DNA of 37,149 nucleotides from a virus. The stretch lies in the IMG/VR virus record IMGVR_UViG_3300025030_000275, positions 1 through 37,149 of that record. One strand, 5' to 3'. The notes beneath the pieces were generated by a model. That model did no database searches. It had not been told where the DNA came from and was given only the letters and a program-made list of their open reading frames with translations. Position numbers and translations under genes: made by a program. Positions 23,547 through 36,336 of the stretch are shown here, piece by piece (the first letter of the stretch is position 1; each line of letters opens with the position of its first letter).

Positions 23547-23624
23547 ATGCAGAAACAGCAAACAGTTGTCAAGGTGTGGGTGATGCTCCCCAATCCGTTG
23601 ACCAAGGAGAGGCGCGATGAGTAA
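23547..23624 (+). CDS. Possible 25-residue peptide
   Basis: An ATG at 23547 with AACGGAGGAATT directly upstream opens a 25-codon frame that ends inside the next gene, overlapping it by eight bases. The peptide (QKQQTVVKVWVMLPNPLTKE) has no known domain. The strong ribosome binding site suggests translation, perhaps to couple ribosomes into the following gene, as in a leader peptide. Confidence 0.4.
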   Translation: MQKQQTVVKVWVMLPNPLTKERRDE

Positions 23625-24483
23625 AGCAGTGGCCATCAGACAGACCGGAGAAATGCAACTTGCCGACTACAAGCCCAAGAGCTTGATCGACCTGGCTCAG
23701 TCTACGGCGATTATGCAGCGCCTGCTTAAGGGGATCATGAAGGTCGACGTGCACTTTGGCACGATCCCCGGGACTCCAAAGCCGACGCTTTTCAAGGCGG
23801 GCGCCGAGAAAATCCTTTCCACGTTCCTGATCAGCGCGGAACCGATTGTCGAAGACCTCTCAACTGACGACTGCAGCCGGTACCGCGTCAAGGTGATCGG
23901 TTGCACGCCTGACGGAACGATCATCGGGTATGGCATCGGCGAGTGCTCGACGGACGAGGAAAAGTACAAGTGGCGCGCCTCGGTGTGTGATCAGGAGTTC
24001 GAAGCCACAATGCAGGACCGGCGCCGGGAGAAATGGAGCAAGGGATGTCAGAACTCGCCGCCAAAGTCGGTAAAGCAGATCCGCACCAATCACGCCGACC
24101 TCAGCAACACGGCGCTGAAGATGGCAAAGAAGCGCGGGATGATCGACATGGTGCTGACGGCTACTGCAGCATCAGACCTCTTCAGCCAGGACCTTGAGGA
24201 TCTGAAGGACATCATCGACATCACCGACTACCAGAAGCCGACAGGCGGGAAGCCGGAAGTCAAGACGCCGCAGTCCACTCAGGAGCAGGGCGGCGATCAG
24301 AAAGACCCTGCGGCGAAAATCTCGGCTGGCGGTGCGGTCTACCTCACCAAGCAGCTCGACACCAAGAAGATCCCGCACGCCGACTTTTGCGCCTACATGA
24401 AGGTGGCCGCTATCGGCGACATCACCAACTCGGATTTCAACGCGGCGTGCGCGGCCGTCAAGAAGTGGGAAGCACAGCCTTGA
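23617..24483 (+). CDS. Putative single-strand annealing / recombination protein
   Basis: This 288-residue protein belongs to a widespread phage group recognisable by VDVHFGTIPGTPKPTLFKAG (about residues 43-62), AEKILSTF, GYGIGECSTDEEKYKWR (about 104-120) and RTNHADLSNTALKMAKKRG (about 146-164). Such genes normally sit next to a PD-(D/E)XK exonuclease, as here. They are suspected to be annealing proteins that pair with it for recombination. The C-terminal quarter (after about residue 200) is a separate linker plus small helical domain. The function is inferred from gene pairing rather than from a proven fold; HHpred comparison with Rad52, RecT and ERF groups would decide it. The stop overlaps the exonuclease start (TTGA). 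Confidence 0.6.
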   Translation: MSKAVAIRQTGEMQLADYKPKSLIDLAQSTAIMQRLLKGIMKVDVHFGTIPGTPKPTLFKAGAEKILSTFLISAEPIVEDLSTDDCSRYRVKVIGCTPDGTIIGYGIGECSTDEEKYKWRASVCDQEFEATMQDRRREKWSKGCQNSPPKSVKQIRTNHADLSNTALKMAKKRGMIDMVLTATAASDLFSQDLEDLKDIIDITDYQKPTGGKPEVKTPQSTQEQGGDQKDPAAKISAGGAVYLTKQLDTKKIPHADFCAYMKVAAIGDITNSDFNAACAAVKKWEAQP

Positions 24484-25109
24484 CAACCCTTGATCTCACC
24501 TTCGATCCGATAGCGCACCATTACTTCCTCAACAAGGAGCGCTTGCCCTCGGTGTCGGAGATCAAGGATCCGCTTACCGATTTCAGCATGGTTGCTCCGG
24601 ACGTAATGAAGAGGGCACAGGATTTCGGCACGGCCCTGCACTCCATGGTGCAATTCTGCCTGGAAGAGACATTAGACTTTGGCTCTCTCGATGACGAGCT
24701 GTTCGGATGCCTACAGGCTTTTGAACTCTGGCTATCAGAAGTCAAACCCTTCCAGTCCGGACCAGCACTGATCGACGTGAAGTCCCGCAAGTTCGACAGG
24801 GTAGCCGATCCGGTTCAGCTTGCAGCGTATCACCAGCTTTACCTGGAGAACGGGATCGAAGAGGTGGCCGTCGAGCGCCCTATGGCGAGCATCATTCACC
24901 GCTACGCCGGGACGCCTGACATCATCATACCCGCAGAGGCCGGCGGCCCGATCCTGAACCACCGGATTCTCTACCTTGGCCGGGATGGAAGATACCAGTA
25001 CACCCCCTGCTATGACCGCAACGCTTGGCCGATGTTTGGCCGACTCCTGGGCGATTACTACCGCGTCCAGGAAACTCAAAAATTAATTCACTCTTGGAGG
25101 AATAGATGA
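24480..25109 (+). CDS. PD-(D/E)XK exonuclease with permuted motif order
   Basis: The start is TTG 24480, overlapping the previous stop; the product is 209 residues. It contains the pieces of a RecB-type nuclease: FGTALHSMVQ (49-58), LIDVKS (97-102, D99 and K101), QLAAYHQL (113-120), ERPMASIIHRYAGTPDII (132-149, D147) and a final GRDGRYQYTPCY (167-178). In usual family members the YAGTPD segment comes before the DxK and QLAAY segments. Here the order is reversed, as if two blocks of about 30 residues had swapped. The enzyme likely resects DNA ends for the partner annealing protein. Activity depends on whether the permuted strands still fold together. Confidence 0.72.
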   Translation: MTTLDLTFDPIAHHYFLNKERLPSVSEIKDPLTDFSMVAPDVMKRAQDFGTALHSMVQFCLEETLDFGSLDDELFGCLQAFELWLSEVKPFQSGPALIDVKSRKFDRVADPVQLAAYHQLYLENGIEEVAVERPMASIIHRYAGTPDIIIPAEAGGPILNHRILYLGRDGRYQYTPCYDRNAWPMFGRLLGDYYRVQETQKLIHSWRNR

Positions 25110-25843
25110 ACACGGAAGAAACTGAAGTACCGACCGGCGCAGCAATGGAGGTGTATCGGGAGATCCTGATGCTCACCATCACGGACCAGGATACCTGCGG
25201 CCAGATGGTCACCCATGTTAAGCAGATGAAGGATGCCGTCAAGGGTATCGAGCTTTGGTTCAAGCCGATGCTGGGCGAGGCGAAGACCGTTGTCGACGCG
25301 GCCAAGGTGGCATTCGACGGCGTGAAGGCCAAGCAGACCGAGGCGACCGCACCATTCATCGAGGCATCCACCACCGGGCAGACAGCTATCAACTCCTTCC
25401 TCACGGCTGAGCGGAACCGGGCGGCAGCGGAACAGCAGCGCCTCCAGGTCGAGGCAGCACAGAAGAAGCAGCGGGAGCAGGAAGAGCTACAGGCTTCCGC
25501 AAAGGCGCTAGATGCAGCAGGCAGCACTACGGCAGCAACGGCTCTCAGGCAGGAGGCCGAGCGCGTCATTGAGGCCCCGGTATTCGTGCCGACCGTTGAC
25601 AAGACTCTTCGCGTCGACGGTGGCCGGGCGGCTGGCGGGGCTACTATGTCTCAGGTCGTGAAGGTTTCCGCTCAGGTGACCGACGTTAAAGCGTTCCTGA
25701 AATACCTCGTTGAGCAGGGCAGCGCGGCGACCTTTATCGAGTTCCCCGCCGCCAAGCTCGCCGCCTGGGTGAAAGCCAACGGGATCAAGGCCGGGGAAGT
25801 GCCAGGGCTCGCTATCGAAGAGACTGTTTCGTCGAGGATCTAA
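25106..25843 (+). CDS. Coiled-coil protein of the recombination block, unknown
   Basis: This 245-residue protein starts with CTTGGAGGAATAG before the ATG, overlapping the exonuclease stop. Residues about 20-150 are helical, with a strong coiled coil of Glu, Gln and Ala (RNRAAAEQQRLQVEAAQKKQ). The C-terminal part (about 185-245) forms a small globular domain (VSAQVTDVKAFLKYLVEQG, FPAAKLAAWVKANG, PGLAIEE). Proteins of this layout are frequent beside phage annealing and exonuclease genes, but I know of no proven role. A scaffold for the recombination proteins is a guess. Confidence 0.6.
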   Translation: MNTEETEVPTGAAMEVYREILMLTITDQDTCGQMVTHVKQMKDAVKGIELWFKPMLGEAKTVVDAAKVAFDGVKAKQTEATAPFIEASTTGQTAINSFLTAERNRAAAEQQRLQVEAAQKKQREQEELQASAKALDAAGSTTAATALRQEAERVIEAPVFVPTVDKTLRVDGGRAAGGATMSQVVKVSAQVTDVKAFLKYLVEQGSAATFIEFPAAKLAAWVKANGIKAGEVPGLAIEETVSSRI

Positions 25844-25879
25844 AAGCCTCACCACTATTTTAGTTTTTGGAGGAAATCC

Positions 25880-28285
25880 ATGACCATAACATCCCAAATC
25901 ATAGGCATCGCCGCCGACTTCGCCGAGATAGAAAAGCTCCGGTCGCTCGGCAGAGTGCTACACCGGCAGATTGCCGAGAATGACGAACAGCTCCAGGTTC
26001 TCAACGAGGACAAGGCGCACCTTGAGGCAGCATACGACGCGAACAATCTGCAGATCATCGCGGCGACCGAGCGCGTTCATTCCTTCCTGGCGGGGTATCG
26101 GGCCGCTCCGGTCGAGGAAAAGAAGCCCCGCGCCAAGAAGGTGACATCAGAATCGCCCCCGGCCGCTGAAAAGCACCCTTGCACCACGTGCGGCGATGTC
26201 TTTTACAGCAAGGTCGATCTCGCCAAGCATCTGCGGGCTGAGCACAAGATTTCGCTGGAAGAGGCGGTTGTACCGGTGCCGGAAGGCCAAAAAGAGGAAA
26301 ACGATTTCCTTTCCCTCTGCGCCGATTGTTTGGGCGAGTGCGGCGAGTACCCGCCGACAAATACCAAGGTTGGCTGCAACAGGTACAGCAGTAAGCCCAA
26401 TGCCGACCAGACCACCTGGCGCGAATCGGTCTGCCTGGAGTGGAGGGGGTGCCCCTTCACCGCCAAGTGCTTCGGCCCCTCCAACGAAGAGAACCCGACC
26501 TGCTTCAAGGAAGACGAGATCCGGAGGCGCGGGGAGGCTTCGCTTGTTGCCGACATGGCCGCTTTTCATATCGACTCGGCCAGCAACAGAAACAACGTCC
26601 CCTGCTGGAATTCCTCCTGCGCATGGGCCGACCTCGCCCAAGCCGATCACTGCGACGCCGATGAGCAATTCCGCGCTGGTCGTCCGGTTCACGAGTGCGG
26701 TTGTCTGGTTACCGGAGACGCCCCGGCCAAAGGTCAAGACGGCGCAGGCTGCATCAACTTTGAGTGCGATGATAACCGCTGCCAGCTAGGGTGCAACGCT
26801 TTAGAAGAACCCTGGACCTGTGAGAAATATCACTCAGCGGGGTGGGGTCCGACTAAAGAAGAGACGGCAGAGGTTTTCATCGGGAACGATGATGTTGCCC
26901 CAACCGACGCGGAAATTCTGAGCCAGCACGAACCGGCAGACAAGATCCTTCCTCGCGGCGAGTTCCGCACAGAGGACATTCCGAAGGGTAAGAAGAAACG
27001 GGCGGACTTGCTGGAAGCGCGCAGAAAGGATGTGGCCGATCTTGTCGCGCGGCGCATCGACTACTTCACCCGAGGGAGTGCGGTGGTATCCGCTTACGAC
27101 AAGAGCATGGGCTATGATCTCCATTTCGGCCTGAAGCAAAACGCAACGCAGCTTTCCTATGCCCTGACGCAGTTCAACGGACTGAACGAATTGCTGAATC
27201 CTTCCACTCCCGGCCCCTCAAAAGAAGACGCAAAACAGGAACCTGCACAGCCAGCGGACGAATCGCCCGCGCAGGCCTCGGAAGTCGTCCGGTGCCGCAA
27301 TAACAGCTGCGATTACTTCGACAGCTTCCTCCCTGACAACTGCAGCAGGCTAGCCCTGGGCGAACCGGAGCCGGTCACTGCCTGCAAGAACTATCGGGCT
27401 GAGTTCGGGCTTAAGGAGGCAGCGCCTCAGCAGCACGTTCCCGATGATTGTGACAACTGCGGTAACCGCGGCATCATCGACGGGACCGACGATTACTGCA
27501 ACTGCTTTCACGGAGTCCGCGCAAGGAAAGGGGATCAGGCGGAACTGGAGCGGCGCAAACTCAGAAAGGAGGCTCTTAATGCGACAGCTACGCCGGAACC
27601 GGAGACGGAAAGCGAAGAAGCGGCTACTGAAGGCGCTGGTGATTCTGCTGATAGTGGCGATGGTCAGGTAAGCCGGACCTATGCACCGCTTGACGAGCTG
27701 CTAGGTGACTGCGAACTGTGTCACGGAAGCGGCGTGGTCGACGGCGAACTCTTCGGAGATTTCGCCCTGATCCCTTGTATCTGCGAGGCAGGGGCCAAGG
27801 TTGCCGGGGAAAAGTGGGCGCCGGTCAAAAACCTCACCCGCAAAGCCTGCTGCAACGACTGCACGATTGACGATCCGGATTGCCACAGCTGCGAACTGCT
27901 CGACCAGGCTGACCCCGCCGAACTCCCCAAATGCGCCAACGGCTCTTGCACCGCCACCGGGAAGGACGCAAAAGACGCCTGCCTGCGCGTCCAGGGCGCG
28001 TCTTGTCCAAGCTTCGTCGACGTCAAGGATTGCAAGCACCACATGCTGAAACGCTCAGACGTGAACGGTGCGACCGTCTGCGACCTCTGCGGGTTTGTGC
28101 TGAGGACTGCGGAGCGAGAGGCCGAACGTATTGCCGCACTAGAGAAGGAGGCGGCCTTGACCGCTCCGACCGCGCTGCAACTCAAATGCCCTCACCCGAA
28201 ACCGTTCCGCATCCAGACCGTCGAGGGCGAGATGTGTAAGGTTTGCAAGCTGGTGTTGGGCGGGCAATCGGGGCAATCGTTATGA
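25880..28285 (+). CDS. Giant Cys-rich multi-zinc-knuckle protein (801 residues, 47 Cys)
   Basis: A strong ribosome binding site (TTGGAGGAAATCC) precedes the ATG. Residues 1-73 form a coiled coil. Residues 101-122 are a classical C2H2 finger (C101, C104, F108, L114, H117, H122). Further cysteine groups follow at 147-166, 185-208, 242-275 and 291-314, then a Cys-free helical middle (about 320-465). After that come groups at 472-502, 524-542 (CDNCGNRG), 611-635 (CELCHGSG, like a DnaJ-type knuckle), 657-671, 685-718, 734-737 and 786-789. Several groups share the module CxNxSC...C...C, which suggests internal duplication. No enzyme motif is seen. The protein may be a zinc-loaded scaffold or nucleic-acid binder, but its role is unknown. 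The stop overlaps the helicase start. Confidence 0.75.
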   Translation: MTITSQIIGIAADFAEIEKLRSLGRVLHRQIAENDEQLQVLNEDKAHLEAAYDANNLQIIAATERVHSFLAGYRAAPVEEKKPRAKKVTSESPPAAEKHPCTTCGDVFYSKVDLAKHLRAEHKISLEEAVVPVPEGQKEENDFLSLCADCLGECGEYPPTNTKVGCNRYSSKPNADQTTWRESVCLEWRGCPFTAKCFGPSNEENPTCFKEDEIRRRGEASLVADMAAFHIDSASNRNNVPCWNSSCAWADLAQADHCDADEQFRAGRPVHECGCLVTGDAPAKGQDGAGCINFECDDNRCQLGCNALEEPWTCEKYHSAGWGPTKEETAEVFIGNDDVAPTDAEILSQHEPADKILPRGEFRTEDIPKGKKKRADLLEARRKDVADLVARRIDYFTRGSAVVSAYDKSMGYDLHFGLKQNATQLSYALTQFNGLNELLNPSTPGPSKEDAKQEPAQPADESPAQASEVVRCRNNSCDYFDSFLPDNCSRLALGEPEPVTACKNYRAEFGLKEAAPQQHVPDDCDNCGNRGIIDGTDDYCNCFHGVRARKGDQAELERRKLRKEALNATATPEPETESEEAATEGAGDSADSGDGQVSRTYAPLDELLGDCELCHGSGVVDGELFGDFALIPCICEAGAKVAGEKWAPVKNLTRKACCNDCTIDDPDCHSCELLDQADPAELPKCANGSCTATGKDAKDACLRVQGASCPSFVDVKDCKHHMLKRSDVNGATVCDLCGFVLRTAEREAERIAALEKEAALTAPTALQLKCPHPKPFRIQTVEGEMCKVCKLVLGGQSGQSL
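27579..27671 (+). CDS. Possible 30-residue basic membrane peptide encoded inside the Cys-rich gene
   Basis: In another frame, ATG 27579 is preceded six bases upstream by AAAGGAGG, a near-perfect ribosome binding site. The 30-residue product starts with nine Arg or Lys residues within the first 16 positions (QLRRNRRRKAKKR) and ends in a hydrophobic segment (ALVILLIVAMV), shaped like a small membrane peptide. The host gene is a low-complexity linker in this stretch (residues 567-597), which would tolerate an overlapping frame. It may be chance, but the site is stronger than those of many real genes here. Confidence 0.35.
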   Translation: MRQLRRNRRRKAKKRLLKALVILLIVAMVR

Positions 28286-29667
28286 CATACGACGAGTTCC
28301 TGCAATCTAAACTCATAACATCTGCGCCATCAGGATTCGATATCGACAGGGATACACTTCCCGCCAAGATGTACGAGTATCAGAAGGACCTCGTACAGTG
28401 GGGGTGCAAGAGGGGCAAGGCTGCGATGTTCACCATGACCGGCACCGGCAAAACGGTCATGGGTGGATCATGGGCGCATCAGGTGGCAAGCCACACCAAT
28501 GGCGCAGTCTTGTGGCTGGCACCGCTGGCAGTATCGAAGCAGACCGTGAGCGAGTGTGCCAAGTTCGGCATAGTTGTCAACCCTTGTAGATCGCAGACTG
28601 ATGTACGGCACGGCATCAACATTGCCAACTACCAAATGTTGCATCATTTCGACGCGGCAGCGTTCGCCGGCATCGTTCTAGATGAATCCAGCATCATCAA
28701 ATCGTACTCCGGCAAAGTGCGGGCACAGATCATCGAATTTGCTCGCACCATCAGTTATCGTCTGGCGTGCACTGCAACGCCGTCACCCAACGACTACATG
28801 GAGCTTGGCAGCCATGCCGAGTTCCTGGGGGTGATGAACTACACCGAAATGCTGGCGACGTACTTTGTCCACGATGGCGGCGAAACGTCGAAGTGGAGAT
28901 TGAAGGGCCATGCGGCGGATAGGTTCTGGGAGTGGCTGGCGTCATGGGGGGTCTTCCTTGTGAAGCCCTCAGATCTCGGGTATTCGGACGAAGGGTTTGA
29001 TCTGCCGCCACTACTCACCCATCAGCACGTCGTGGAGTCGGCACCGACCGAAGGCAGTCTGTTCGTGGTCGAAGCGTCAAGCCTCACGGAAAGGCGTGCG
29101 GCCCGGAAGGAATCACTCGAAAGACGCGTAGATAGGTGCGCAGAGATTGTCGCGCAGAGTCGGAAGCCGTTTCTCGTATGGTGCGACCTCAACGCAGAGT
29201 CGGAAATGCTTACAAAGGCCATACTCGGTGCCGTCGAAGTGACTGGCAGTGACAGCGATGAGCATAAAGAGAAATGCATGATGGATTTTGCGGCGGGGCT
29301 AATCCCAGTAATGGTTACCAAGCCGTCGATATGCGGGTTTGGTATGAACTGGCAAGCTTGCGCGGACACTGCCTTTGTCGGCATGTCCGATTCATTTGAG
29401 GCTCTTTTCCAGTCGACAAAGCGTTTCCATCGTCATGGGCAGACCCGCGAAGTCAACCGCCACCTGATAATTTCCGAGGCGGAGGGGGCGGTACTTGCCA
29501 ACGTCCGTCGCAAGGAAAAAGAGTTCGAATCTATGATCATGGGCATGGTGGAACATACCAAAAAAATGAGCATCAACAACGTCCACATGCTCGCCAACCA
29601 GAAGGACAACTACAACGCAGATAAGCCTATCTCAATTCCTGAATGGCTGGTGGCGGGAGGTTTTTAA
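28282..29667 (+). CDS. SNF2-like superfamily 2 helicase / DNA translocase
   Basis: The ATG at 28282 overlaps the stop of the Cys-rich gene (ATGA). The 461-residue protein shows Walker A MTGTGKT (52-58), motif Ia WLAPLAV, motif II LDESS (133-137, a DESS variant of DEAD/DEAH), motif III ACTATPSPND (162-170) and motif VI QSTKRFHRHGQ. This is the usual compact phage form of SNF2-like helicase. In many siphophages this gene is directly followed by a DNA methyltransferase, as it is here, so the two may act together on phage or host DNA. The direct role is not known. Confidence 0.85.
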   Translation: MTYDEFLQSKLITSAPSGFDIDRDTLPAKMYEYQKDLVQWGCKRGKAAMFTMTGTGKTVMGGSWAHQVASHTNGAVLWLAPLAVSKQTVSECAKFGIVVNPCRSQTDVRHGINIANYQMLHHFDAAAFAGIVLDESSIIKSYSGKVRAQIIEFARTISYRLACTATPSPNDYMELGSHAEFLGVMNYTEMLATYFVHDGGETSKWRLKGHAADRFWEWLASWGVFLVKPSDLGYSDEGFDLPPLLTHQHVVESAPTEGSLFVVEASSLTERRAARKESLERRVDRCAEIVAQSRKPFLVWCDLNAESEMLTKAILGAVEVTGSDSDEHKEKCMMDFAAGLIPVMVTKPSICGFGMNWQACADTAFVGMSDSFEALFQSTKRFHRHGQTREVNRHLIISEAEGAVLANVRRKEKEFESMIMGMVEHTKKMSINNVHMLANQKDNYNADKPISIPEWLVAGGF

Positions 29668-29668
29668 C

Positions 29669-30589
29669 GTGGTCAAAGATCAAGAAATAAATGAGCGGTT
29701 CGCCGTCTACTGCGGGGACTGTGTTGAAGTGGCTCGGCAGTTCCCTGCCGACAGCGTTCACTATTCCATCAGCAGTATCCCCTTCGCCAGTCTCTACACA
29801 TAATCGAACAGCGAGCGGGATCTTGGCAACTGCCGCACCTATCAGGAATTCCAGTCACACTTTGACTTCATGATCTACGAATGGCACCGCGTCATGATGC
29901 CGGGGCGTCTCGTGTCCATTCACTGCATGAACCTGCCGACCAGCAAACAGCACCACGGCTATATCGGGCTGCAAGATTTCCGTGGCGATATCATCCGCAT
30001 GATGCAGAGTGCCGGGTTCATTTACCACTCGGAAGTCTGCATTTGGAAAGATCCCGTTATCGCCATGCAGCGCACCAAGGCACTCGGGCTGCTCCACAAG
30101 CAGATCAAGAAAAACAGTGCCATGAGTCGCCAGGGGATTCCAGATTACCTTGTCACGTTTAGAAAACCGGGGGAAAACCCCGAGCCGATCACTCATACAA
30201 ACGAGTCATTCCCCATTCCAACGTGGCAGCGGTACGCCGATCCTATTTGGGTGACTTGCAACAATGCCGAGGACGACGGGTTCTACAAGCTCACACAAGA
30301 CATCAACCCAAGTGACACGTTGCAAAAGAAAAGCGCCCGCGAAGAGAAGGACGAGCGCCACATATGCCCGCTACAACTCCAGGTGATTGAGCGCGGCATT
30401 GAGCTTTGGAGTAACCCCGGCGATGTGGTCTATGACCCGTTCGGGGGGATTGGCAGCACCGGATGCGTGGCTATCAAAAAGGGCCGGTACGCGCTCATGT
30501 CGGAACTGAAAGAGAGCTATTACAATCAGCTCTCACTCAACTGTCATAACGCCGTTGATCACCGTGACTCGGGGCAATTGTTCCAGTGA
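29669..30589 (+). pseudogene. DNA methyltransferase interrupted by one in-frame stop
   Basis: The frame starts at GTG 29669 after GGAGG and reads VYCGDCVEVARQFP and a motif IV-like SSIPFASLYT. It then meets TAA at 29801-29803 (codon 45) and continues as SNSERDLGNC and PGRLVSIHCMN, through DPFGGIGSTG (motif I) to the end at 30589. Relatives have Tyr at the stop position (LYTYSNSE), so one base change of TAT or TAC to TAA explains it. The motif order IV then I fits beta-class N4-cytosine or N6-adenine methyltransferases. An internal start at 29870 would lack the catalytic motif. Thus the gene is inactive unless the stop is read through. The neighbouring helicase and KTSC genes are intact. Confidence 0.85.
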
Positions 30590-31973: not shown

Positions 31974-32095
31974 ACTGCAACATTTGCAATCGCCCCAGAG
32001 TCAGCATGAGGGTGACACACAGGCGGGGCCAGTGGGCGGCAGTTGAGGTTGTCTGCCGAAAGTGCCAGCGGTGGGCGAGGAGGCTGGTGAAATGA
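31970..32095 (+). CDS. Small zinc-ribbon protein
   Basis: ATG 31970 overlaps the previous stop. The 41-residue product has CNIC (3-6) and CRKC (about 29-32) around a basic middle (RPRVSMRVTHRRGQ), then a basic tail (RWARRLVK). It is a minimal zinc ribbon with a strongly basic surface and probably binds nucleic acid. The stop overlaps the next start (ATGA). Confidence 0.5.
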   Translation: MNCNICNRPRVSMRVTHRRGQWAAVEVVCRKCQRWARRLVK

Positions 32096-32868
32096 GCCAC
32101 CTCAACCAAGCCCTTTTCAACCAACGAATGATGCGCGGGGCCTTAACCGGCCCTGATGCTGAGGAGAAGATAGCGATGAGACGATGCAATGGAGTTATGG
32201 AAAATGGCAGGAGGTGTAGCGTCGTGCCGCTGACTGAACACGAATACTGCAAAGCCTGCAAGGTCAAGGAGGCACGAGGGGAGATGCCTGAGTTAAAACC
32301 TACAGTGATGCCGGTGGAGCCTGTTAAGCGCGGGAGGCCGAAAGGTGTTGTGAAGGGTAGCTTGTCTGCTGTGCCGAAAAACCTTTGCGACAACTGCGCG
32401 GGGTTTGGCGCCTGCGGAGACCGCGATGATAGCCAGGGATGCGTTGCTTATTCGCCTGCCGAAACTGTCACATCTGAAGCCGGTCATGATGGGTCACCGG
32501 TTGAGCTGGACACCTCCACTGCCATGGGTATGGGTGATGATACGGAGAACCTGCTACACGCACCGGCAACCGTCAAGGAATCTTTGACAGTTGAGCTTTT
32601 CGCTGAAACCGAAAACGTCCAAATTCCCCACGTAGCGCCCGACCCCCCCCAAGAGCAAGCAGAGGCCTTAGTCAAACTCAGTTCGCCCCTTGCCGCCCTA
32701 GTGGCCACACCAGAACCGCCATTGCCGGACACGGCCATAGTGCTCGACCTCGGATCGATGCACGAAACGCTGGTCGATCAGGGTGTGGGGACTGTGACGA
32801 TCCTGGAGCTGCTTGACGCGCTGTTCGTCATCAAAACGTACAGGCTGGTGCGGCATGCTGCTGGTTAA
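32092..32868 (+). CDS. Cys-rich protein with AT-hook-like motif
   Basis: This 258-residue protein starts at ATG 32092. An N-terminal Cys group (RRCNGVMENGRRCSV, YCKAC) is followed by a KRGRPKG motif (about residue 78), like an AT-hook that binds the minor groove of AT-rich DNA. A further group, LCDNCAGFGACGDRDDSQGC, resembles a module in the 47-Cys protein. The second half is a Pro-rich, acidic linker with a small C-terminal helix pair (VTILELLDALFVIKTYRLV). The role is unknown; DNA binding is likely from the motif. The next gene starts inside this one, 14 bases before its end. Confidence 0.5.
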   Translation: MSHLNQALFNQRMMRGALTGPDAEEKIAMRRCNGVMENGRRCSVVPLTEHEYCKACKVKEARGEMPELKPTVMPVEPVKRGRPKGVVKGSLSAVPKNLCDNCAGFGACGDRDDSQGCVAYSPAETVTSEAGHDGSPVELDTSTAMGMGDDTENLLHAPATVKESLTVELFAETENVQIPHVAPDPPQEQAEALVKLSSPLAALVATPEPPLPDTAIVLDLGSMHETLVDQGVGTVTILELLDALFVIKTYRLVRHAAG

Positions 32869-35432: not shown

Positions 35433-35568
35433 CTAGGGGAAGCTTCGCCGCAGTTCCAGCGGAGTTATCAGATGGAGAGGGAGCGGAAGGGTTTGGTGTA
35501 GGTTTAACGGTTTGGAGTTCTGGCCGGCGGGACAGGAACGACTTGTTATAGTGCAAAAGGGGAGTGAC

Positions 35569-36336
35569 ATGAAATTCGATGCTGATAGGGAAGGAACGGG
35601 TACAGCAGAGTGGGCCGAAGTGACAGAGAACATCTGTCGCGGCTGTGCGAATAACTGCCTGTACTGCTATGCCGCCCACAATGCCAACCGCTTCAACCTG
35701 CGGAAACGTGACGATTGGGCAAGAGAAGAACTGACGAAGCGTTCTCTGATTAAGTCCTACCCTGCCAAGAACGGCATTGTCATGTTCCCGAGCAGTCACG
35801 ACATCACGCCTTTCAACCTGGAGTCGTGCATCAGGGTGCTGACGCTCATGCTGAAAAAGGGCAATCAAGTCCTGATCGTTACCAAGCCCCGCGCAAGTTG
35901 CATTGAGGCGTTACTGAATGACCTCGCACCATGGAAGGACCAGATTCTTTTCAGGTTCACTATTGGCAGTATGAACGATGCAACGTGCTTCTTCTGGGAA
36001 CCGGGGGCGCCTTCCCCTTTCGAGCGGTTGGGCTGCTTGAGGGATGCTTTTGAAGCTGGGTTTAAGACCTCCGTTTCCATCGAGCCGATGCTTGCCGGTG
36101 TGGATTCAACGCTTCATGTGGTTGACCATGTTCAAGACTACGTGACGGACACCATCTGGATCGGGAAGATGAACAAGACGAACCTGCGAGTTGACAAGGC
36201 ATTCCGTGCCGAGGTTGCCAATATCGAAAAGTTACAGGCAGATGACGAGATCATGAGGTTGCATCGCTACCTTGATGCTCACCCTCTGGTCCGCTGGAAG
36301 GACAGCATCAAGGAAGTCTTAGCCAGAGCACTATAA
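35569..36336 (+). CDS. Radical SAM protein, phage Gp37/Gp68-like (DUF5131 type)
   Basis: The ATG at 35569 has AAAAGGGGAG upstream and gives 255 residues. NICRGCANNCLYCYA (21-35) holds the CX3CX2C cluster motif (C26, C30, C33) of radical SAM enzymes that bind a 4Fe-4S cluster, plus an additional C23. The rest fits a TIM-barrel-like order: PSSHDITPFN, QVLIVTKPR, FRFTIGSMND and SIEPMLAGVDST. The Gp37/Gp68 group is common in phages and its substrate is not established; repair or modification of DNA or a small molecule is possible. It follows the replication genes with a 136-base gap. Confidence 0.82.
   Translation: MKFDADREGTGTAEWAEVTENICRGCANNCLYCYAAHNANRFNLRKRDDWAREELTKRSLIKSYPAKNGIVMFPSSHDITPFNLESCIRVLTLMLKKGNQVLIVTKPRASCIEALLNDLAPWKDQILFRFTIGSMNDATCFFWEPGAPSPFERLGCLRDAFEAGFKTSVSIEPMLAGVDSTLHVVDHVQDYVTDTIWIGKMNKTNLRVDKAFRAEVANIEKLQADDEIMRLHRYLDAHPLVRWKDSIKEVLARAL

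Follow-up and report, generated by a model that had tools for sequence, protein, structure and literature searches.

A cysteine-rich protein with about twelve metal-binding-type modules encoded in the recombination operon of a tailed phage

As judged from codons and alignments, the frame 25880..28285 of a tailed-phage DNA encodes one real, translated protein under selection, built of repeated metal-binding-type modules. It belongs to a family whose members differ by whole modules, which are gained and lost module by module. A plausible, although still tentative, reading of this architecture is that the protein is a beads-on-a-string hub of the recombination/replication operon, which would gather its partners through independent zinc modules.

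The window, i.e., the whole stretch of DNA that was analysed, is the 37,149-base IMG/VR virus record IMGVR_UViG_3300025030_000275. Genes for terminase, portal and HK97-type capsid lie on its left and a recombination/replication cluster on its right; the Cys-rich gene, its parts and its neighbours up to the methyltransferase gene, as described below, are on the + strand. The gene is preceded by a GGAGG sequence (25869..25873), read as a ribosome-binding site, 6 nt 5' of the ATG. Its product is a protein of 801 aa (87 kDa, pI 4.9) with 47 cysteines; the frame, coordinates, length and cysteine count given in the first-pass annotation were all exact on recount. Cysteine makes up 5.9 % of the residues as against 1.3 % across the 32 other genes of the window (binomial P ~4e-17).

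Homologues were found in five IMG/VR contigs, all with recognizable modules: P0002 (605 aa, contig L014), P0003 (399 aa, L015), P0004 (876 aa, L016), P0005 (834 aa, L026:8284-10788), and a partial frame of 516 residues, L063:1-1551, which is 5'-truncated by the contig end. The first two were obtained via synteny with the upstream neighbour and the third via their alignment, while the fourth came from its annealing-protein neighbour and the fifth from an alignment of the core. All use the same reading frame. Codon comparison gave dN values of ~0.3-0.6 and dS values of ~1.1-1.7, and thus a dN/dS of roughly 0.2-0.5, which is only rough because dS is near saturation. Synonymous TGC/TGT switches were seen at 4-9 of the 20-38 cysteines shared per pair. 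From these codons, the family is under purifying selection, and the homologue alignment together with the codon comparison rules out that unrelated frames were fused in this gene. Among the fully aligned columns of a four-way alignment, cysteine is conserved much better than any other residue (20 of 28 cysteine-containing columns invariant, some of the others reflecting a misaligned finger in P0003), glycine coming next (12 of 40). Cysteine content is 5.3-5.9 % in the window protein (P0001) through P0004; it is lowest in P0005 (4.4 %) and highest in the partial frame of L063 (6.6 %). The complete members range from 399 to 876 aa.

The 47 cysteines of the window protein can be arranged in ~12 four-ligand sets, with three cysteines left over. 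Among the sets are one C2H2 finger, several modules of the CxNxxC type, two knuckles (CxxC...CxC), one CCxxC...CxxC module, two CxH...CxxC ribbons and a pair assigned with less certainty, and each set presumably holds one zinc ion; if zinc-bound, this module anatomy is secure. The N-terminal coiled coil proposed earlier is predicted by AlphaFold2 as an antiparallel helical hairpin (residues 3-71, 25886..26092; helices 3-36 and 42-71, block pLDDT 57-73). It is followed by the finger and then by M2a (CxxC...C...C, residues 147-166, 26318..26377), which is missing from the other homologues read, and M2b (C-x5-C-x5-C-x10-C, residues 185-208, 26432..26503). The split of M2 into two sites is a reading of the spacing and is the least certain assignment. 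Next come M3 (CxNxSC...C...CxC, residues 242-275, 26603..26704) and the degenerate CxNxxC-type module M4 (residues 291-314, 26750..26821). A Cys-free helical middle domain (residues 332-441, 26873..27202), which is 69-72 % identical in two homologues and replaced or absent in the others, separates these from M5 (CxNxSC...C...C, residues 472-502, 27293..27385). The knuckles M6 (CxxCGxxG...CxC, residues 524-542, 27449..27505) and M7 (CxxCxGxG...CxC, residues 611-635, 27710..27784) are joined by an acidic linker. The C-terminal part consists of M8a (CCxxC...CxxC, residues 657-671, 27848..27892), M8b (CANGSC...C...C, residues 685-709, 27932..28006), and the ribbons M9 (residues 718-737, 28031..28090; alignment and AlphaFold2) and M10 (residues 770-789, 28187..28246).

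The repetition of a CxNxSC...C...C module noticed in the first-pass annotation holds up: the window protein has four C-x-N-x-x-C...C...C modules, starting at residues 242, 291, 472, and 685, and the family has 17. In a held-out test of common descent against Cys-fixed shuffles, the 95th percentile was exceeded by M3, by a single copy each of M5 and M8b and by two additional copies. M4 was not significant, and the outcome for the modules apart from M4 was mixed. M9 and M10 are mutual duplicates in P0002, P0003, and P0004, the support for this being weak in the window protein and in P0005. The AlphaFold2 model, made from a shallow alignment of four sequences, has a mean pLDDT of 40.6; order is predicted only in the coil, the finger, the middle helices and the C-terminal ribbons, most modules are without a confident fold, and the linkers, with their low pLDDT, are read as largely disordered. 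In fold searches with the full model, residues 1-78 matched helical hairpins of a generic kind, such as the seryl-tRNA synthetase arm, Smc and prefoldin (Z up to 9.6), and residues 337-446 matched helical bundles. A separate model of the middle domain (pLDDT 60) had no match at E <= 0.001. Neither comparison was taken as informative.

The C-terminal core M7-M8a-M10 is common to all six family members. The shortest homologue, P0003, consists of the coil, the finger and M7-M10 only. P0002 has these parts together with M3, M4 and the middle domain, and it carries a short cluster of cysteines where M2b would lie. In P0004, a different second M2-type cluster is present, M6 is lacking and an extra CxNxxC module lies between M9 and M10; a CCDTC stretch in this protein was considered as a copy of M8a and is not a clear one. 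P0005 is without the finger; it has a pair of CxNxxC modules in the interval from M7 to M8a and, beyond M10, additional ribbons of the CxH type. Its residues ~690-834 appear to form two copies of a ~65-residue domain (KAGFxxxR...) that is absent in the other homologues and has weak PHROG matches. In L063, M8b, which is present in the five other members, is absent and another, non-Cys domain (residues ~70-170) replaces the middle domain, without a match in Pfam or PHROG.

One module, M6, is clearly related to part of a named phage protein: it matches the knuckle at the N terminus of SPP1 gp41 (PHROG 35666) with an E-value of 2.3e-5 over profile positions 12-66, and none of 2000 Cys-fixed shuffles scored as high. 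The two proteins share the knuckle CxxCGxxGII.G....CxC..G as well as a location in a replication cluster, the gp41 gene lying directly 3' of that of the replicative helicase G40P. SPP1 gp41 differs in being a 175-aa protein with one knuckle, of which the N-terminal third alone is held in common with the window protein; the match stops at position 66 of the 183 profile positions, so that the full-length architecture of PHROG 35666 is not present. PHROGs gives the role of gp41 as unknown. Stretches of M7, the finger and the M4 type weakly matched further PHROG families, which are likewise small and orphan. Two DnaJ-like CxxCxGxG knuckles had been proposed; the one at residue 611 (M7) indeed has this motif, whereas that at residue 524 (M6) reads CxxCGxxG. 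Both are followed by a CxC and not by further CxxCxGxG repeats and thus do not form a DnaJ zinc centre, which has four repeats; a J domain is also lacking, and the likeness is confined to the single motif in M7. The small phage zinc-ribbon activators P2 Ogr and Mu Com are single-module proteins of under about 80 aa, and resemble the protein by general description, as phage regulatory proteins with short Cys4-type modules.

No match to the whole protein was present in Pfam, PHROGs, NCBIfam, PADLOC, PDB, phage records (E up to 0.01), or plasmids, and phage searches with P0004 and P0005 as queries, at E up to 1, were likewise without a match. Short-module tblastn searches gave matches at chance level only, SPP1 gp41 excepted. 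Two scans of genome contigs and a first scan of viral contigs yielded no relative; they used short exact peptide patterns and are weak evidence of absence. A literature search found no account of a protein of such a multi-module kind. In general kind, all the module types are familiar; the novelty lies in their assembly and their module-wise evolution.

The neighbourhood had been described as one of recombination genes, and a recombination/replication cluster is indeed present. At each of the five loci for which upstream sequence is available, the Cys-rich gene is preceded by genes for an annealing protein, a nuclease and a coil protein, in that order. In the window, these neighbours are a probable single-strand annealing protein (phrog_10048, 23617..24483), a phrog_298 exonuclease (24387..25109, exact start uncertain) and, directly 5' of the Cys-rich gene, a coil protein with a weak match to phrog_10477 (25106..25843). 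Downstream are an SNF2-like helicase (phrog_62, 28282..29667) and an N6/N4 DNA methyltransferase (PF01555 in Pfam, 29870..30589); the cluster also holds a resolvase-type nuclease, a replication initiator and DnaB. Translational coupling to the helicase had been proposed from the overlap of the two genes. The ATGA overlap is real in the window (28282..28285, ATG at 28282 and TGA at 28283-28285) but is not conserved in the relatives. A link to the helicase is not borne out, as three of six loci are without it downstream (L016, L063, and L026, within the downstream sequence covered) and the constant neighbours are upstream. L014 has a different helicase, fused to a methyltransferase, whose gene overlaps that of the Cys-rich protein at its end; in L015, a gene of that type lies further off. 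Of the 37 loci to which the annealing protein led, only three carry the Cys-rich gene, which is thus an accessory of the operon.

Several other features of these loci may be mentioned. In L015, the annealing slot is occupied by a RecT-like protein (L015:495-1346; RecT-like as judged from its sequence rather than from a family match), the last ~110-130 residues of which share homology with the tail of the otherwise unrelated-looking 23617-24483 product (33 % identity); by this comparison, the slot is the site of an annealing-domain swap in which the tail was kept. An HNH-endonuclease-like frame (L015:7243-7800) inside the long helicase-methyltransferase gene of the same contig (6204-9368) seems, on inspection by eye, to have been inserted between parts of the helicase. 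In the window, a Radical SAM/DUF5131-like protein (35512-36336) adjoins the DnaB helicase gene. Another operon protein, encoded at 32062-32868 in the window and at L014:16162-16725, has two small Cys clusters and no match in Pfam or PHROG; one cluster of the window gene weakly resembles M2a, at a score reached by 134 of 5000 Cys-fixed shuffles.

The hub proposed here builds on the observed single protein and its family, on gain and loss by module, on cysteine conservation and on operon context. The mosaic movement of modules, purifying selection, the likeness of M6 to SPP1 gp41 and the acidity of all homologues also count in its favour. The N-terminal coiled-coil hairpin would probably oligomerize the protein or dock it on a coil-bearing partner. 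Along acidic and largely disordered linkers would follow ~12 small, independently folding modules of the Cys4, Cys3His, and Cys2His2 kinds, each with one zinc ion. Contact with DNA would be likeliest at the lone C2H2 finger and the basic arm ahead of it, and the other modules would most likely bind one protein partner each. Candidate partners are the phage annealing protein, the nuclease, the coil protein and host replication or recombination factors, which the hub may gather at recombination intermediates. Modules could then be gained, lost and exchanged one by one because each works alone, and the repertoire would be tuned to partner and host. A farther-reaching variant, which is rather unlikely, is that of a customizable multi-partner docking string, the modules of which would each capture a different protein of phage or host, possibly one of defence, so that the set of modules in a phage would record the partners to be recruited or blocked.

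The main rival casts the protein as a modular inhibitor directed against host or defence functions, its modules mimicking or capturing zinc or defence proteins of the host or of competing phages and their turnover being the trace of an arms race. The adjacent coil protein is 77-79 % identical to its counterparts in L014 and L015 (58 % to that in L016), as against 36-55 % over the whole length of the Cys-rich protein, which thus changes faster. Moreover, DNA identity to L063 is uneven (M6, 87 %; M2b, 84 %; the M7-M8a stretch, 72 %) and, on this pattern, indicates an exchange of pieces between relatives. This faster divergence, the turnover and mosaic exchange of modules and the acidic charge, reminiscent of nucleic-acid mimics, would all suit an inhibitor. 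However, the gene is always located in the recombination operon and not in an anti-defence cluster, and M7, M8a, and M10 are retained in all six members, unlike what a purely variable set of decoys would show. No PADLOC model was matched, although that library covers defence rather than anti-defence proteins. On balance, an inhibitor is considered unlikely.

The C2H2 finger (residues 101-122, 26180..26245; CTTCGDVFYSKVDLAKHLRAEH) bears on a second rival, in which the finger, the basic arm and some of the ribbons recognize a site on the phage DNA and the protein serves as a regulator or origin-binding organizer. The ligands C101-C104-H117-H122 (CX2CX12HX4H) and an F/L core agree with the pattern CX2-4CX12HX3-5H with an aromatic/Leu core, which is also present in P0002, P0003, and P0004, the ligands being retained in all four. 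AlphaFold2 predicts strands near residues 99-108 and a helix at 111-122 (block pLDDT 75-82). The earlier assignment as a C2H2 finger is thus upheld by ligands, core and predicted strand-strand-helix, even though the score against PF00096 (zf-C2H2) is below the curated Pfam cut-off (14.8 vs 25.2 bits). By alignment and charges, the basic cluster KKPRAKK (residues 81-87, 26120..26140) lies N-terminal to the finger, and a similar K/R cluster precedes it in all four finger-bearing homologues. Bacterial C2H2 fingers are rare, 489 examples having been counted in UniProt, and the archaeal-virus C2H2 protein AFV1p06 binds DNA (PMC3541406). Spacing, hydrophobic core, predicted fold and basic flank are as in PF00096 and AFV1p06, from which the window protein differs in that its lone, sub-cut-off finger sits in a large, acidic multi-module chain. 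In members that have a finger, this finger and its upstream arm could, by their residues, serve as a DNA anchor, and the AFV1p06 precedent and the early-type location of the operon would also agree with a DNA-binding regulator. Nevertheless, the chain is strongly acidic overall, a single finger is present and P0005 is without one, so that DNA recognition is not the family-wide function (the N-terminal part of the L063 protein lies outside the contig). A regulator of this kind is therefore improbable.

A scaffold on nucleic acid had also been put forward in the first-pass annotation, and a protein that coats single strands with knuckles acting like those of retroviruses would agree with the recombination operon, as single-strand binding is common among zinc knuckles. 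Every homologue is strongly acidic, however (pI 4.6-5.0, net charge -24 to -44), the modules are mostly neutral or acidic, the only locally basic parts of the 801-aa protein are the C2H2 arm, M10, and the end of M6, and an annealing protein is already encoded in the operon; the idea is not supported and is held to be quite improbable. Storage or sequestration of zinc, also suggested earlier, is scarcely credible, since a capacity of ~12 metal ions per 87-kDa chain (by ligand count) could be surpassed by a small protein at less cost, and since the cysteines, at 5-6 % (4.4-6.6 % over the family), occur in ordered four-ligand sets with conserved non-Cys residues and type-specific module sequences that storage does not need, unlike those of metallothioneins, which are small and very rich in cysteine.

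Acidity, largely disordered linkers, autonomous modules and constant recombination neighbours thus speak more for a multivalent hub that docks proteins than for a coat on nucleic acid or a store of zinc; operon context alone cannot tell a hub from another early function. Prokaryotic viruses usually have zinc modules singly, in small proteins. If the hub proposal is true, a family with up to ~12 of them, next to a constant recombination operon, would amount to a naturally occurring kit of exchangeable binding modules, and several orphan families of small phage zinc proteins would be tied to one role. The series of variants, from 399 to 876 residues, makes the roles of single modules directly testable.
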